This document shows positions 17,005 to 23,444 of a stretch of DNA of 64,000 nt, in pieces (the first letter of the stretch is position 1; each line of letters begins with the position of its first letter). The notes beneath the pieces are model-generated. The model did no database searches and was not told the origin of the DNA. It saw only the letters and a list, made by a program, of their open reading frames with translations. Both the position numbers and the translations under genes were made by a program. This DNA is from Halothermothrix sp. Its GTDB lineage: Bacteria > Bacillota > Halanaerobiia > DY22613. Location of the stretch: assembly GCA_016841825.1 (NCBI GenBank), contig JAENYK010000007.1:50846-114845 (forward strand), written 5' to 3'.

Positions 17005-17042
17005 AAGCTATACCAGAAGTTGTCAACTACTTCTAGTATAGC
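17005..17042 (-). terminator. Intrinsic terminator overlapping the end of the C11 protease gene
   Basis: AGCTATACCAGAAGT-type arms at about 17006-17020 and 17029-17042 form a 14-bp near-perfect stem, followed on the minus strand by a long T-run. The first arm on the transcript is formed by the final codons of the protease gene. Confidence 0.85.
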
Positions 17043-18144
17043 CCTTTTCTTGATAGCTATTATTGTTCCACAATCTTCGAAGTACTTTTGACCATGAAGA
17101 GAATTCCTGGGTATATTTTAGGCTACCATAATATTTCTGTAATTCTATAGTTGGTTCTCCTTCCGGGAAATAAACGGACATTCCCTGCAAAGCATCCACT
17201 TTAAAGGTGTTTACATGTTTAACGCACATTTCCCAGTAAACTATCTCTAAAATATCAGGTAAACGCCCCAACTTATGATTAAAAATAGTTTTCAATTTTC
17301 TGACCAGATCTAACAAATCGACATAGTCTCGGTCTGTACACCTACTAACTCCACTAATCAACCACTTGATCTTGACAAAATCTTTTTCTGGCATCTCCAG
17401 TACTATGGATGCCAATAGATCAAATATTTCAGCCAATCTAGACAGACCATCTGTTTTAAAACCAGAAAGAGTAGCCCCAGAACCTTCTTTCTGATAAAAA
17501 TCTCTATAGGCAGAAACAATACATCGTACCACTTCTTCTGGAGATGTACAGGACTTCAAATTCGATAAAAAATAATGATAAGGCCAACCTCTATTGGGAA
17601 TTTTCTCTTCTGAAACAATCACATATTTACAATATTTTTTGATTTCATACAATAGTTCAAAATTACCCATTAAACACGCATCAAATCCTATGATGTCGTA
17701 ATAATAACCACACTCTTCTAGTGCCTGGAGTAATTCTCCAGAAGTCAAATAATCATTACTTTCCAGATCATCACATAACCCCTTCCAACCATGTCCATGT
17801 CCCCACAGGATAAGTGTCTGATATTTGGATCTATCATAAAAATTGAGCCAATGCAGAAAATCTTTTAACGATTCTGGATCGCCAGTATTAATCTCTCCCA
17901 ATCTGCTAATAGGAAGCGAGATCATCTGATTTGCGGTTGTCGTAACTCCTTTAATAATCTTATACCTTCTTGTATCTCCCCAGATTTTAGCTGAAGTAAA
18001 ATAAGGCGTCCGTCGATCTAGCTGAACAAGAATATTTACAAAATCATCACTACCCACCTGTTCCATCTCAATAATATCACGGATACCAGCTCCATCTAAG
18101 TCTTCATCACCTGCCATATAAATACCCACCGTCCATTCTAGCAT
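17023..18144 (-). CDS. Clostripain-type (C11) cysteine protease of a RiPP-like operon
   Basis: 373 residues from the ATG at 18144, which follows AGGGG by nine bases; TTG at 18153 is less likely. The catalytic dyad of the C11 family is visible: His in ILWGHGHGW (about 116) and Cys157 in GFDACLMG. C11 proteases cleave after Arg or Lys. There is no signal peptide, so it acts in the cytoplasm. The gene is the last in a four-gene leftward operon with a Cys-containing small peptide, a beta-rich protein and a radical SAM enzyme. The protease may remove the leader or process the peptide. Similar gene sets (Cys-rich peptide, radical SAM maturase, clostripain homologue) are known in clostridia. Confidence 0.9.
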   Translation of the reverse strand: MLEWTVGIYMAGDEDLDGAGIRDIIEMEQVGSDDFVNILVQLDRRTPYFTSAKIWGDTRRYKIIKGVTTTANQMISLPISRLGEINTGDPESLKDFLHWLNFYDRSKYQTLILWGHGHGWKGLCDDLESNDYLTSGELLQALEECGYYYDIIGFDACLMGNFELLYEIKKYCKYVIVSEEKIPNRGWPYHYFLSNLKSCTSPEEVVRCIVSAYRDFYQKEGSGATLSGFKTDGLSRLAEIFDLLASIVLEMPEKDFVKIKWLISGVSRCTDRDYVDLLDLVRKLKTIFNHKLGRLPDILEIVYWEMCVKHVNTFKVDALQGMSVYFPEGEPTIELQKYYGSLKYTQEFSSWSKVLRRLWNNNSYQEKGYTRSS

Positions 18145-18156
18145 TAAGATCAACCC

Positions 18157-19614
18157 CTATATTAGAAAATCAAGTAATTCTTCATCCTCTTCCATTATTT
18201 CGCAATACATCTGCAGTAACTCTGCAAAAAGTTCTCTACCATTCTGGCAGTTAAAAGCTATCTTTGACGAGCTAATCTGATTGTTAAATAAAATCCGGGC
18301 AGGACAGATTGAACATAATCGAATCAACCAGCAGGATTGACAAGTATTATACTCATGTTCTTCCAACAAATCGAGAAAGAGATCTACTTTGTGCCAATCA
18401 ATTCCCGTCTCTAAATCTCCCAATATTCCAATCCCATTACCATCAACTTTTTCACACAGATAAATCTGTCCTTCACTATCTATAAATAACCTCTCTTCCC
18501 CAGGATAGCAAAAGCCAAAAGAGTTTTTAAATATATTTGGGAAAGGTGAAACCTCTAAATTCCTTTTCACAAATTTCTTCAACCCCGGAACAAACAGCGA
18601 AAACAAAAAACTTCCACCTCTGTTCCGATAATCACGCCCCCATTGGTGATCACGAATCTTCTCTCTAAATTTAGTCTTCAGCTTATCCCACCCAGGCGCA
18701 GTGATTCGCTGTTTACGTGAAATGTTATCATTATACTCCATCATACTCGGAAGTACTCTAATCGGGAATCGCGAGAAAAAATTATCTAATTCCTCAAAAT
18801 CAAAGGGAGGTGCTAATACTGTGCTAAAACTCAGATTTTGGTTAAAAAAAGCAGGATGATTCTTTTGAAGATAATCTAGCACAGCCATTACATCTCTAAA
18901 AGTCCCTGTGTAATCATCTTTCTTAACTCGCATTCGATCATGAACAGCTTCAGGTCCATCAAGGCTTAAAGTAAGAAGAAAATCTTCCTCTACCAGATAA
19001 TCCAACACTGATGGAATTAACAATGTTCCATTAGAAGTCAAAGTAAACCTTAATCGCTGATAATCTAATTTCCGTTTACTATAACTAACCAATTCTTTAA
19101 TCAGAGGTAAATTCAAAACAGGTTCACCTCCATAGAACCCAATAATCAGATTCTCACTGTCAGGAGAACAATATCTCGCGAAAAAGTCAATTGCTTTATA
19201 TCCATTTTGTAAACTCATATTTTTTTTTGAATGTTCTCGAAAAGTTGGATAATCTTTTGAGCAATACAAGCAATATCCACAATGCAAGTTACAATTCTCA
19301 GTTACCTCCAGAGCAATAGAAGATAAGCTCAATTCTCTTCTCCGTTCTCCCAGGGATAGTCTAACCTGTTCTGGACGTTTATGTAAAAGAAGACCTTCTT
19401 GTTGTGTCCTCCTAATCTTCTCCATTCCTTGAACAATTCGGGCAGTATCAAAATATATGGAATATTTATTTATTATATCTTGATGACTTAATATACCCAA
19501 ATCTTCGATAATCGTATAAATTACTTCAGGTACTTTTAATATATGATTCGTGTTAACATCATAAAGATAATAACCTTTACTCGTCTGTATTTTCTTTACA
19601 AATGGGTTCCTCAT
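18157..19614 (-). CDS. Radical SAM/SPASM maturase of the Cys-peptide operon
   Basis: 485 residues from the ATG at 19614, six bases after GGGAGG. Residues about 1-90 look like a PqqD-like leader-binding domain. The radical SAM motif is CNLHCGYC (Cys108, 112, 115) with one more Cys three residues on (YCLYC). GFYGGEPVLN is the GGE motif. The C-terminus has GFCYPGEE, IYLCEKVDG and CQSCWLIRLCSICPA, a SPASM-like set for auxiliary iron-sulfur clusters. It probably modifies the 57-residue peptide encoded at the start of the operon, which has three Cys. It resembles clostridial Cys-rich-peptide maturases in layout; exact chemistry cannot be read. Confidence 0.92.
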   Translation of the reverse strand: MRNPFVKKIQTSKGYYLYDVNTNHILKVPEVIYTIIEDLGILSHQDIINKYSIYFDTARIVQGMEKIRRTQQEGLLLHKRPEQVRLSLGERRRELSLSSIALEVTENCNLHCGYCLYCSKDYPTFREHSKKNMSLQNGYKAIDFFARYCSPDSENLIIGFYGGEPVLNLPLIKELVSYSKRKLDYQRLRFTLTSNGTLLIPSVLDYLVEEDFLLTLSLDGPEAVHDRMRVKKDDYTGTFRDVMAVLDYLQKNHPAFFNQNLSFSTVLAPPFDFEELDNFFSRFPIRVLPSMMEYNDNISRKQRITAPGWDKLKTKFREKIRDHQWGRDYRNRGGSFLFSLFVPGLKKFVKRNLEVSPFPNIFKNSFGFCYPGEERLFIDSEGQIYLCEKVDGNGIGILGDLETGIDWHKVDLFLDLLEEHEYNTCQSCWLIRLCSICPARILFNNQISSSKIAFNCQNGRELFAELLQMYCEIMEEDEELLDFLI

Positions 19615-19629
19615 CCCCAACCTCCCTAA

Positions 19630-20098: not shown

Positions 20099-20272
20099 TT
20101 AAGAACCGTATCTATAACCAGCAATGCCAGCTGCTCTAGTTATTTCTAGTTCCACATAACAATCACAATTTGAATTACACTCACTACCGCCCTTTGGTGC
20201 ATTGTCTTCCTTACTTTGCATAAAATTTTTTACAAAAGACTTTACAACTTCCATCTCATTATCTTTACTCAT
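20099..20272 (-). CDS. Cys-containing RiPP precursor candidate, 57 residues
   Basis: A 57-residue gene with a clear GGGAGG site before the ATG at 20272. The N-terminal half (MSKDNEMEVVKSFVKNFMQS) is a charged amphipathic helix typical of RiPP leaders. A KGG-S junction at about residue 27-30 could be a double-glycine-type boundary. The core has Cys at 32, 36 and 38 (ECNSNCDC) and ends ITRAAGIAGYRYGS with two Arg, possible cleavage points for the clostripain-type protease encoded downstream. It is the first gene of the leftward operon. The precursor role is inferred from size, leader-like N-terminus and the maturase and protease in the same operon. Confidence 0.8.
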   Translation of the reverse strand: MSKDNEMEVVKSFVKNFMQSKEDNAPKGGSECNSNCDCYVELEITRAAGIAGYRYGS

Positions 20273-20388: not shown

Positions 20389-20540
20389 AAGCACTCTTGG
20401 CAATTAACATTTTTTAAATCTAGTTATACTTTAATTGATTAATAGTTATTTTTTACAATATGAAGGAGGTTTTTCCTAGTCCTTTGAAGAATATATGTTA
20501 TATCTGATAAATGTAACAAAAATATAAGTGAGGTGATCTC

Positions 20541-22025
20541 ATGCATAAACAAATTTTATTGGTAGTACTCCAATTTACTAACAATAATTCTCCCAGTGAC
20601 CGAATTTTTGAACATCTAGGTGTTGGATATATAGCAGCTTATCTCCGTCAACATGGCTATTCAGTGAAAATTGTTGATCAAAATTTATTGCAGCAGAACT
20701 TAGATGGCATTATCCAAAAAGTTATTACCGAAAGACCATTTTTAGTTGGCATTGCCTGCTATCAAAGTGCTTTCACTGTTTTACAAGAATTCGCCCGGAC
20801 AGTCAAAAAATCTCTTCCGGAAATCCATTTAGCAATGGGAGGAGTTTTTGCAACTAATAGTTATCAGAATATTTTTCGAGAGATTCCAGAATTGGATTCA
20901 ATTATTTTAGGTGATGGAGAAGAGACTTTCACAAACCTGGCAGATGCGCTCTTAAACGATGAAAATTGGCAAACTATCTCCCATCTTACCTACCCTGATG
21001 ATCCTGCACATCTTACCAAATCTCCAAAATATGATACTGACATAACCACTCTTCCAGATCCTGCAAGAGACACACTACCAGTTGTTATCGAACGCAGCTT
21101 ATTTCCCACAATCTCCGCCAGTAGAGGTTGTTATGGTAATTGCTCCTATTGCTCAATTACTATCCAAAATCGCAAGCGTAGATGCCGGGAGATGATTTCT
21201 GTTATTGATGAGATGGAACGACTTTTTAAAGATTATCGGGCAGATTACTTTTACTTTATTGATGATACCTTCATCGGAGGTAGTAAAAAAGATTATCAAA
21301 GAATTGAAGAGTTTGCCAGAGAATTGGAACAGCGTAAATTACCTTTTCAATTCTCGATAGAGTGTCGAGCCAATGAAGTAGACGCAATTCTACTAAGAAA
21401 GTTACAGAAAATCGGCTTATACTCTGTTTTCTTAGGATTGGAATCAGGTTATCAACCTACTTTAGATATGTTTAGAAAAGGGATTACTGTTGAACAGAAC
21501 ATAACTGCTGTAAAAACTCTCAATGAATTAGGGATTAGATACAATATTGGATTTATCATGTTCCATCCATTTACAACTTTACAGGAAGTAGAAGCTAATC
21601 TTAACTTTTTGATGCATACCGAGCAGAAAAATTTTCTGGACAGCCTACACCGTACTTTAATGGTCTTCAACAATGCTCCAATTGCCGATCAGTTAGCTCA
21701 AGAAGGCATCACCTGTCAACCATGGTACGACACAGCAGTACCCTTTCTCCACACTGAGATTCAGCCATTATACAACTTTGTCGAAGAGTTTACTGCCGGA
21801 ATTAAGCCAGGAATTAATCAACTAGCAGTTCATTTTAGTCAAAGTAATGATCAGAATGAGAAAACACAAATTGCCAGACTTCACTCCACTCTATGTTCAA
21901 CCTATGTAAATGCTCTATATCAATACACTCAACTTGCTGACGAAAATTTTCTTAAAGAGAAGATGGATGAACTGCGTGATCATTATTCTAGTGTAACACA
22001 AGATCTAGGACTTAAGATCAGCTAA
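20541..22025 (+). CDS. B12-binding-domain radical SAM enzyme
   Basis: 494 residues. Residues about 1-150 form a cobalamin-binding-type Rossmann domain (GVGYIAAYLRQHGYSVKIVD, LVGIACYQSAF, HLAMGGVFAT, ILGDGEETF). The classical DxHxxG cobalamin His is not visible, as in many class B enzymes of this superfamily. The radical SAM motif is CYGNCSYC (Cys197, 201, 204), followed by FIDDTF and a C-terminal helical part. Such enzymes methylate or rearrange unactivated carbons in RiPPs and other natural products. Here the gene is directly upstream of a 39-residue peptide gene and a SPASM enzyme. The start follows GAGGTGATC. Confidence 0.92.
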   Translation: MHKQILLVVLQFTNNNSPSDRIFEHLGVGYIAAYLRQHGYSVKIVDQNLLQQNLDGIIQKVITERPFLVGIACYQSAFTVLQEFARTVKKSLPEIHLAMGGVFATNSYQNIFREIPELDSIILGDGEETFTNLADALLNDENWQTISHLTYPDDPAHLTKSPKYDTDITTLPDPARDTLPVVIERSLFPTISASRGCYGNCSYCSITIQNRKRRCREMISVIDEMERLFKDYRADYFYFIDDTFIGGSKKDYQRIEEFARELEQRKLPFQFSIECRANEVDAILLRKLQKIGLYSVFLGLESGYQPTLDMFRKGITVEQNITAVKTLNELGIRYNIGFIMFHPFTTLQEVEANLNFLMHTEQKNFLDSLHRTLMVFNNAPIADQLAQEGITCQPWYDTAVPFLHTEIQPLYNFVEEFTAGIKPGINQLAVHFSQSNDQNEKTQIARLHSTLCSTYVNALYQYTQLADENFLKEKMDELRDHYSSVTQDLGLKIS

Positions 22026-22036
22026 ATTTTTTCACT

Positions 22037-22274
22037 TTGGAGATGAGGGGAATAAAACAATCTAAATCACATAAGGAGGTGAATTTAATGATTAATAAAT
22101 ACTGGAATTTAGAAGAATATAATTTTGGTGAATTGGCTAGTGCTGTTGCACCTGCTAAACCATATAGTGCTGCAACTATTGATGATCCATCTTTTCCACA
22201 AAGATAATTATCTTTGGTAAGGGATAAACATTTGAACAAATTTTAGAGTTTTACCTTTTATCCCTCATCTCCAA
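22037..22274. repeat. Inverted repeat enclosing the 39-residue peptide gene
   Basis: TTGGAGATGAGGG (22037-22049) is perfectly complementary to CCCTCATCTCCAA (22262-22274). The right arm can also pair with AAGGGATAAA at 22219-22228, giving two mutually exclusive hairpins on the transcript. The peptide gene lies entirely within the large loop. This could set the ratio of peptide to downstream enzyme, for example by partial termination or RNA processing. Confidence 0.7.
22088..22207 (+). CDS. Cys-free RiPP precursor candidate, 39 residues
   Basis: A 39-residue gene with a perfect AAGGAGGTGA site seven bases before the ATG. The N-terminal part (MINKYWNLEEYNFGELASAV) is leader-like and the C-terminal part is rich in Ala, Pro, Ser and Asp (APAKPYSAATIDDPSFPQR). 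There is no Cys or Met in the core, so thioether chemistry at Cys is excluded and C-C, C-O or epimerisation/methylation chemistry is more likely. It sits between a B12-type and a SPASM radical SAM gene on the same strand, the classic position of a substrate gene. No named family is recognised. Confidence 0.78.
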   Translation: MINKYWNLEEYNFGELASAVAPAKPYSAATIDDPSFPQR

Positions 22275-22309
22275 TAAATTTTTATTATAGAATATAAGGA
22301 GGGTTAATA

Positions 22310-23353
22310 ATGAAATTTTACCCTGATACAGCTGTCTGGGAGCTGACAAATGCCTGTAATGCCAACTGCATTCACTGTGGTTCCAGATCAGGTACACCAC
22401 GTCCCAATGAGATGACAGAAACAGAAGCACTTCAATTATGTGATGATTTGAAAACCTTAGGTTGTAAACGAATCACCCTGATTGGTGGAGAAATATTTTT
22501 GAGCCCATACTGGGAAAAAGTTGCCCAACGCCTGGTTAACAATGGCATCAGAGTTGCTCCTTTAACTAATGGGATCATGATCAATCAGAAGACACTGGAT
22601 AGACTAAAAAAAGCTGGAATAGATAACATATCTGTCAGTATTGACGGATTAGCTAAAACCCACGATTATATCCGGGGAATGCCGGGAATCTTTGATCAGG
22701 CTATGAAAGCTATACACCTGGCTAAACAACAGGGATTTCTGGTGGGAATAAATACTACAGTCACGGCGTTAAACTTACACGAATTACCCGCGTTGCATGA
22801 CTACCTTGTTGAGGAAGATTTAGGTTTGTGGCAGATTCAAATCGTCGAAGATATGGGAAATGTAAATGAGAATCAACAACTGCAGATTGATGTAGAAAAA
22901 TTCTATCAACTGGCCAAATACATGGTTCAATTCCGCCAGCAAAAACGGATTAAAATAATAACCTGTCATAATATCGGCTGGTTTACTTCTTTCGAACCAC
23001 TCCTTAGAGATGAACCATTTACGGGCTGCGTCGCTGGCAGATATGCTGTAGGAATTGAGTCCAATGGCAATGTCCGGGGATGTCTTTCAATCATGGGTGA
23101 TCCGGAAGCCAATGTAGAAGGTAATGTCAAAGAACGTTCTCTGATCGATATCTGGAATGACCCCACCAGTTTTACAGCTTTCCGTGATCGTAAAGTTGAA
23201 GATCTAACAGGCTTCTGTGCACAATGCGAATACCGAAAACTCTGTCGTGGAGGATGTTCTTCCGTAGCATATTCGTTGATCAAAAAGTTTACTGAAAATC
23301 CACTATGTTTACACAAATACGAAGTAGAACAGGGAATTAGTTGGGAAGGATAA
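22310..23353 (+). CDS. Radical SAM/SPASM enzyme of the B12-radical-SAM RiPP-like operon
   Basis: 347 residues, AAGGAGG before the ATG. The radical SAM motif CNANCIHC has Cys at 16, 20 and 23, with LIGGEIF as the GGE motif. The C-terminal SPASM domain shows GCVAG, VRGCLSI, FCAQCEYRKLCRGGCSS and a final CLHKY. The protein starts almost at the barrel, so unlike the two other SPASM enzymes in this window it has no PqqD-like leader-binding domain; the B12 enzyme or an outside factor may provide recognition. The length and Cys pattern fit peptide maturases of the PqqE/AlbA/epimerase-like group. A strong terminator follows. Confidence 0.92.
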   Translation: MKFYPDTAVWELTNACNANCIHCGSRSGTPRPNEMTETEALQLCDDLKTLGCKRITLIGGEIFLSPYWEKVAQRLVNNGIRVAPLTNGIMINQKTLDRLKKAGIDNISVSIDGLAKTHDYIRGMPGIFDQAMKAIHLAKQQGFLVGINTTVTALNLHELPALHDYLVEEDLGLWQIQIVEDMGNVNENQQLQIDVEKFYQLAKYMVQFRQQKRIKIITCHNIGWFTSFEPLLRDEPFTGCVAGRYAVGIESNGNVRGCLSIMGDPEANVEGNVKERSLIDIWNDPTSFTAFRDRKVEDLTGFCAQCEYRKLCRGGCSSVAYSLIKKFTENPLCLHKYEVEQGISWEG

Positions 23354-23358
23354 ACCAC

Positions 23359-23413
23359 AAAAAGACAATCTTTATCTCCAATAAGCTTTATGGAGGTAAG
23401 GATTGTCTTTTTT
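23359..23413 (+). terminator. Long-stem intrinsic terminator after the SPASM gene
   Basis: AAAAAGACAATC (23359-23370) pairs with GATTGTCTTTTT (23401-23412), and the stem continues inward through CTCCA/TGGAG to about 22 bp with two mismatches. A T-run follows on the plus strand. Confidence 0.93.
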
Positions 23414-23444
23414 ATGTAAATACTTAACTTTTTGCAACATTCCA

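Follow-up and report, generated by a model that had tools for sequence, protein, structure and literature searches.

We describe an operon in Halothermothrix sp. whose three close-set, co-directional genes encode a B12-binding radical SAM enzyme, a 39-residue peptide and a SPASM radical SAM enzyme. We favor, with slightly better than even confidence, the reading that this is a small, splicease-like RiPP operon with a minimal leader, in which the SPASM enzyme would act at Tyr26 of the peptide and the B12 enzyme would C-methylate its core.

Organization of the operon

All three genes lie on the forward strand of the window, by which we mean the whole stretch of 64,000 nucleotides that was analyzed. 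The B12-binding enzyme (P0001, 494 residues, positions 20541-22025) is preceded by the ribosome-binding site GAGGTGA (20530-20536); the peptide gene (P0002, 39 codons plus stop, 22088-22207) by AAGGAGGTGA (22073-22082), 5 bases upstream of its ATG at 22088; and the gene for the SPASM enzyme (P0003, 347 residues, 22310-23353) by AAGGAGGG (22296-22303). An inverted-repeat search placed a terminator-like repeat with a T run 3' of the operon, on the same strand (23346-23425). Genes and coordinates are as given in the preliminary description, which had seen a RiPP-type trio with the peptide gene between two different radical SAM genes and had called the ribosome-binding site of the peptide gene perfect. 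The peptide, MINKYWNLEEYNFGELASAVAPAKPYSAATIDDPSFPQR, contains no Cys and has Met only at its start, in line with the earlier claim of a core free of both residues; it matched no family in the Pfam or NCBIfam libraries.

The source genome (5.08 Mb, 43 contigs) yields 93 radical SAM matches. A second RiPP cassette lies beside the operon on the reverse strand: a 57-residue Cys-containing precursor, GGSECNSNCDCYVELEITRAAGIAGYRYGS (20099-20272), whose gene is enclosed by a 16-base helix formed by GGATAAGATCAAAGTA and TGCTTTGATCTTATCC, with further genes at 18157-19620 and 17023-18153. This cassette also encodes a CcpM-like SPASM maturase (TIGR04068, 286 of 500 bits) and a clostripain-like protease.

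A precursor family with a conserved tyrosine

Searches of the same genome, with the peptide, an alignment of the SPASM enzymes and an alignment of the peptides as queries, gave a total of seven SPASM paralogs (that of the window and six others) and 17 peptides in eight modules. The 16 homologs of the window peptide have profile E-values from 9e-16 to 2e-8. Because a homologous small gene adjoins all seven SPASM paralogs, its presence beside the SPASM enzyme is more than chance; the B12 enzyme is there as well in three of the seven. Each SPASM paralog is accompanied by one to four peptides, and one peptide is an orphan. Besides the window, the gene order is B12 enzyme, peptide, SPASM in module C22a; peptide, B12 enzyme, SPASM in C10a, where the B12 and SPASM genes overlap by eight bases; peptide, SPASM in C22b; four tandem peptides, SPASM in C6; three tandem peptides, SPASM and one further peptide in C10b; and four peptides, SPASM and a second radical SAM gene in C30. 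In C2 the orphan peptide, MINKWNLENLSYESATEPPYMDYMPSEPPYDEHFNIA (locus L136, 7808-7921, reverse strand), has a large nonribosomal-peptide-synthetase-like gene as its neighbor and no SPASM enzyme in the vicinity, and is presumably modified in trans.

The precursors are 28-41 residues long, and all 17 carry the N-terminal tag M-[ILV]-[ND]-x(0-2)-W-[NDE]-L-x-x-[YFLM] (hereafter WNL), which in the window peptide is the putative leader or recognition tag MINKYWNLEEYNFG (22088-22129). Outside this tag the peptides are variable, except that in every one of them one of residues 20-26 is a Tyr whose next residue is Gly, Met, Cys or Ser; a Pro comes after this Tyr in 16 of the 17 cores. The motif is YG in six peptides and YM, YC or YS in the remainder; sites include PYG in C22b, CYG in C6, YMP in C10b and YCP in C30, the window peptide having PYS, with Tyr26 (K-P-Y-S; codon at 22163-22165) as the predicted modification site. 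In shuffled tails Y[GMCS] occurred at these positions in 3.3 peptides on average and the observed 17 was reached in 0 of 20000 shuffles, for motif letters that were picked after viewing the set and with tandem copies that are non-independent; with one peptide per module, the observed value was likewise never reached. The preliminary description had listed Tyr as one of several possible sites, and its conservation points to tyrosine-directed chemistry. As a whole, the family has the general makeup of a RiPP system: a small precursor with a conserved leader and a variable core, beside an enzyme of peptide-modifying type.

The earlier expectation of a conserved small gene between enzyme pairs holds among the paralogs of this genome (a small gene beside 7 of 7 SPASM genes) and found no counterpart as orthologous trios in other species: the collections searched, from which metagenome contigs were left out, contained no close copy of the trio, and recurrence consists of the paralogs of one genome and one SPASM relative in SAR324. 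The SAR324 precursor also has a WNLDVDNIG stretch. In this precursor (locus L037, 7084-7380), SFWNLDVDNIG and SAYGGCSGCGGW come after a Frankia_peptide-like leader, so that a long RiPP leader is joined to the WNL tag. Separately, the Halothermothrix genome holds tandem arrays of other short peptides with strong ribosome-binding sites beside radical SAM genes (loci L142, 11057-11713; L150, 13199-14090; L155, 18264-18894; L029, 4617-5211); they represent several distinct precursor families, none of them in an enclosing helix of the kind described below.

The SPASM enzyme falls in a superclade with TIGR04103 and TIGR03913

The SPASM enzyme matches the Radical_SAM and SPASM families of Pfam, and no other significant Pfam domain, such as an extra RRE-like leader-binding domain, was found in its 347 residues. 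Its predicted fold is confident (pLDDT 90.7) and likewise shows no additional domain, which upholds the earlier statement that the enzyme lacks a leader-binding domain. The closest solved folds to this model include SkfB, PqqE and SuiB. All seven SPASM cysteines are present (C240, C258, C303, C306, C312, C316 and C333), and the four paralogs aligned with the enzyme are 51-66% identical to it.

The best NCBIfam models are TIGR03913 and TIGR04103, both at 1e-72 and 245 bits, under curated cut-offs of 591.75 and 725 bits, respectively. Since the enzyme is far under both, its reaction may have changed. We placed it in a maximum-likelihood tree of 30 enzymes, made by the 'quick' method with SH-aLRT support only. 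The seven paralogs and the SAR324 enzyme form one clade (support 100), which together with TIGR04103, TIGR03913 and several gut and rumen groups makes up a superclade (support 99); AhbD, MftC (a long branch) and TIGR04053 fall outside it. The superclade is marked by Q175 and Q177 (WQxQ), G223, G24, G51, G248, G257 and S260, residues absent from all four outgroup rows. By sequence, then, the nearest described relatives of the enzyme are TIGR04103 (nif11-class maturase 3) and TIGR03913. An AhbD-like heme enzyme was also considered for this gene and was rejected on NCBIfam scores, tree position and the signature residues, which AhbD lacks.

Because the SPASM enzyme shares a superclade with these two families, the preliminary statement that no described family is involved was only partly right. 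Judging by the libraries and papers searched, the combination of a 13-14-residue WNL leader with a splicease-like enzyme and a B12 enzyme seems to have no earlier description.

Tyrosine motifs recur beside related enzymes

Across the superclade, genes adjacent to the enzymes bear X-Tyr-[Gly/Ala] motifs, often followed by Pro. In Nostoc, the gene of a TIGR04103 enzyme (853 bits, over the cut-off) has on one side that of a Nif11 precursor with ALYGLPPELF at its end and on the other that of a 71-residue protein. The DUF1843 peptides that accompany TIGR03913 enzymes contain KPYGVAI, RPYGPAM, LYGGAM and PMYMATM, and in a genome of the same class as ours RYGVMMPDMP and KYGVVFVP occur in peptides with double-glycine leaders. 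LysM-type or other proteins encoded next to the enzymes in rumen and gut genomes have repeats such as PVYGIVTP, PMYAYIPP and TKYGANIGCQQD; the last type is repeated six times, and a single protein can have as many as six or seven copies of X-Tyr-[Gly/Ala]. Our main argument that the Tyr is the target of the enzyme is this recurrence of X-Tyr-[Gly/Ala] in unrelated proteins beside one superclade.

We take TIGR04103 to be the family of the splicease PlpX (WP_019503880.1), in part from the layout of the Nostoc locus, and splicease to be the sole member family of the superclade with known chemistry. The Nostoc layout is the same as that described for plp (PMC11002830). PlpX with PlpY excises tyramine from XYG, a loss of 135.0757 Da (PMC10533398, PMC11002830); as a family identifier the PlpX paper gives only IPR026482 (PMC10533398). 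In the papers searched, no chemistry or product turned up for TIGR03913, nor for DUF1843 with radical SAM enzymes.

Two sets of related loci were seen in passing. At L095 (526-6795), in a genome of the same class, genes for two splicease-like enzymes are interspersed with those of some ten peptides that have double-glycine leaders and, in many cases, cores of the YGVxxP type. Gut and rumen proteins with repeated YGIxTP or YAYxPP, several with LysM-like starts, lie beside splicease-like enzymes at L043 (5008-5907), L046 (5028-5933), L050 (4824-5906) and L075 (4711-5904), and are possible multi-site splicing substrates.

The B12-binding radical SAM enzyme

The first enzyme of the operon matches the B12-binding family PF02310 (6e-19) and Radical_SAM PF04055 (4e-17), with a CxxxCxxC motif at C197, C201 and C204 whose cysteines are invariant in three paralogs; PF02310 together with a radical SAM core bearing CxxxCxxC places it among the B12-dependent radical SAM enzymes. 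Its two paralogs, in C10a and C22a, are 47-49% identical to it. The second-best NCBIfam match is the RiPP enzyme ApyD (7e-27), a Tyr beta-methylase (PMC11117315); the closest solved structure by profile is OxsB; and the score for the RiPP C-methyltransferase model TIGR03975 is 79.8 bits, under its cut-off of 281.85. From knowledge of the family, the most likely role of this enzyme would be C-methylation of the peptide core, and ring contraction or cross-linking is possible. A role in a lipid or cofactor pathway was rejected, all curated models being far under cut-off (for example BchE, 120 of 481 bits), an outcome that supports the preliminary reading. Where the surroundings of relatives elsewhere in the phylum were read, these were stand-alone genes with no WNL peptides nearby.

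A probable long-range RNA helix encloses the precursor genes

The peptide gene, together with its ribosome-binding site and stop codon, lies between TTGGAGATGAGGGG (22037-22050, forward strand) and TCCCTCATCTCCAA (22261-22274, forward strand), which can pair with each other. Such near-perfect arms, 13-19 bases long, surround every WNL peptide gene or tandem set, with one C30 peptide alone lacking them; the 5' arm lies 33-80 bases before the start and is GGARAT-like in most cases. The helix covaries between cassettes: in ten arm pairs, both sides have changed at 12 of the 14 base pairs, so that the arms differ between cassettes and complementarity is kept. In these pairs 93.6% of cells pair, compared with 44-55% when the arms are slid, and the inner 12 pairs contain 11 wobble cells (G-U on the sense strand) versus three unpaired ones. 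The arms were located by complementarity, which itself favors high pairing; the guards against this were the common GGA register, shuffles and a ranking of genes. The observed helix value was reached in at most 15 of 1000 shuffles, and in none for most cassettes. RNAduplex with loops was too permissive against shuffles for some cassettes, and contiguous helices were used instead.

For the ranking we took the fetched stretches (about 0.6 Mb), with 140 small open reading frames preceded by ribosome-binding sites and 405 large genes. A helix of -20 kcal/mol was reached by 10 of the small frames, namely WNL peptides (one counted twice, through an overlapping frame) and three other Cys-containing RiPP-like precursors, and by four of the large genes, one of which is a SPASM gene flanked by two WNL arms. 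A similar enclosing helix is found around four unrelated RiPP precursors. Three RiPP-like precursors besides that of the neighboring cassette lie in helices of 11-16 base pairs (L157, 8345-8476; L149, 4910-5020; L035, 10668-10787), one of them in another genus of the same class. The enclosing helix is not universal, because seven other precursor sets of the same genome have none; the SAR324 locus also has none, and Rfam gave no match at the helix. We infer a role for the helix in mRNA processing or stability.

Proposed mechanism and alternatives

In the mechanism that we favor, the first 13-14 residues of the 39-residue precursor would be a WNL leader, and the core behind them would offer a single conserved Tyr, Tyr26. 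Without any RRE partner, the SPASM enzyme would bind this short leader directly and generate a radical at Tyr26. Most likely, a tyramine equivalent (-135 Da) would then be removed from K-P-Tyr26-Ser and the backbone rejoined, with an alpha-keto-beta-amino residue left at the position of Pro25. An sp3 carbon of the core would be methylated by the B12 enzyme, which occurs in just three of the seven cassettes. The helix probably either protects the precursor segment of the operon mRNA or lets a nuclease such as RNase III release it, and we propose that the precursor would thereby be made in excess over the enzyme. Joined into a single statement, the proposal is tentative: a splicease-like enzyme that works without PlpY and takes its guidance from a WNL leader of 13-14 residues alone would excise tyramine at non-Gly sites (PYS, YMP, YCP); the B12 enzyme would methylate the same core; and in this bacterial class, precursor genes of several unrelated RiPP families would lie within a covarying long-range RNA helix by which precursor expression is set.

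The same RiPP system might perform other SPASM chemistry at the same Tyr, such as mycofactocin-like oxidative decarboxylation, C-C cross-linking or formation of a three-residue cyclophane with a neighbor of the Tyr. The residue after the Tyr varies (G, M, C, S) and is not always Gly, most of the superclade has no known product, and SkfB, PqqE and SuiB are among the closest folds; however, MftC has neither a place in the superclade nor its signature residues, and the only superclade family of known chemistry is presumably splicease, so that we rate this alternative as possible but rather unlikely. It is improbable that the enzyme instead targets the N-terminal WNL segment (e.g., Trp6) and uses the downstream Tyr for recognition only. 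The core Tyr is no more invariant than the Trp and Leu of WNL, and in the SAR324 precursor WNL is retained behind a separate leader, but the segment lies at the extreme N-terminus, the place of RiPP leaders, and what recurs in the other branches of the superclade is X-Tyr-[Gly/Ala] without any WNL, in several copies within some proteins. That the operon is a regulator or belongs to a cofactor pathway, with the peptide a short non-substrate reading frame, seems to us highly improbable: it is favored by the B12 enzyme's stand-alone relatives elsewhere in the phylum, which have no peptide nearby, whereas the 17 homologous copies with strong ribosome-binding sites, the arrays of three to four peptides before one enzyme and the constant leader with varying cores all speak against it.

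Instead of forming an RNA helix, the inverted repeats could be DNA elements that belong to an invertible or mobile cassette. The near-perfection of arms of this length fits such an origin, as does the C2 orphan, where the module with its repeats exists without enzymes; yet the arms vary between cassettes with complementarity kept, and most departures within the helix read as G-U wobbles in the sense strand, and we consider a DNA element unlikely.

Tyrosine backbone splicing has already been turned into a protein-labeling tag (PMC10533398). If the splicease-like reading is true, enzymes that act on precursors of 28-41 residues, free of partners and at non-XYG sites, would make tools that are simpler and wider in scope, and one genome already supplies a specificity panel of seven natural enzymes and 17 substrates. 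A B12 enzyme beside three of the SPASM enzymes would link C-methylation with backbone change, and the enclosing helix suggests an explanation, open to experiment, for the high precursor and low enzyme output of a RiPP operon.

Comparison with known systems

The B12 enzyme resembles ApyD of the aminopyruvatides in being a B12-binding radical SAM enzyme of a RiPP operon, but it scores 94 of 750 bits, has no RRE by Pfam where ApyD has one, and ApyD is partnered by P450 and MNIO enzymes. With TIGR03975 it shares the B12-dependent radical SAM architecture (1.5e-22), at 80 of 282 bits. The TIGR03913/DUF1843 ('GDL motif') systems are similar to our operon in the best NCBIfam match of the SPASM enzyme, in one or more small upstream peptides and in a PYG, LYG or MYM motif within the peptide; they differ in that our enzyme lacks the C-terminal extension and stays at 245 bits under 591.75, and in that our peptide is not DUF1843 (no Pfam match).

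The spliceotides of PlpX/PlpY share with our system a SPASM enzyme of the same superclade, with WQxQ and Gly223 common to our enzyme and the Nostoc TIGR04103 enzyme, and a core Tyr followed by a small residue and often Pro. In contrast to them, our enzyme reaches 245 bits where the TIGR04103 cut-off is 725 and the Nostoc enzyme scores 853; no gene of PlpY size or likeness lies between or beside the three genes of the locus, though an unlinked copy may exist; the leader is a 13-14-residue WNL tag in place of a Nif11 or nitrile-hydratase leader; the sites are PYS in the window and YM and YC in most siblings, beside YG, as opposed to XYG; and a B12 enzyme is added. The operon thus falls outside the spliceotide family by score, leader and partner protein, and our claim is that its SPASM enzyme would work like a splicease.
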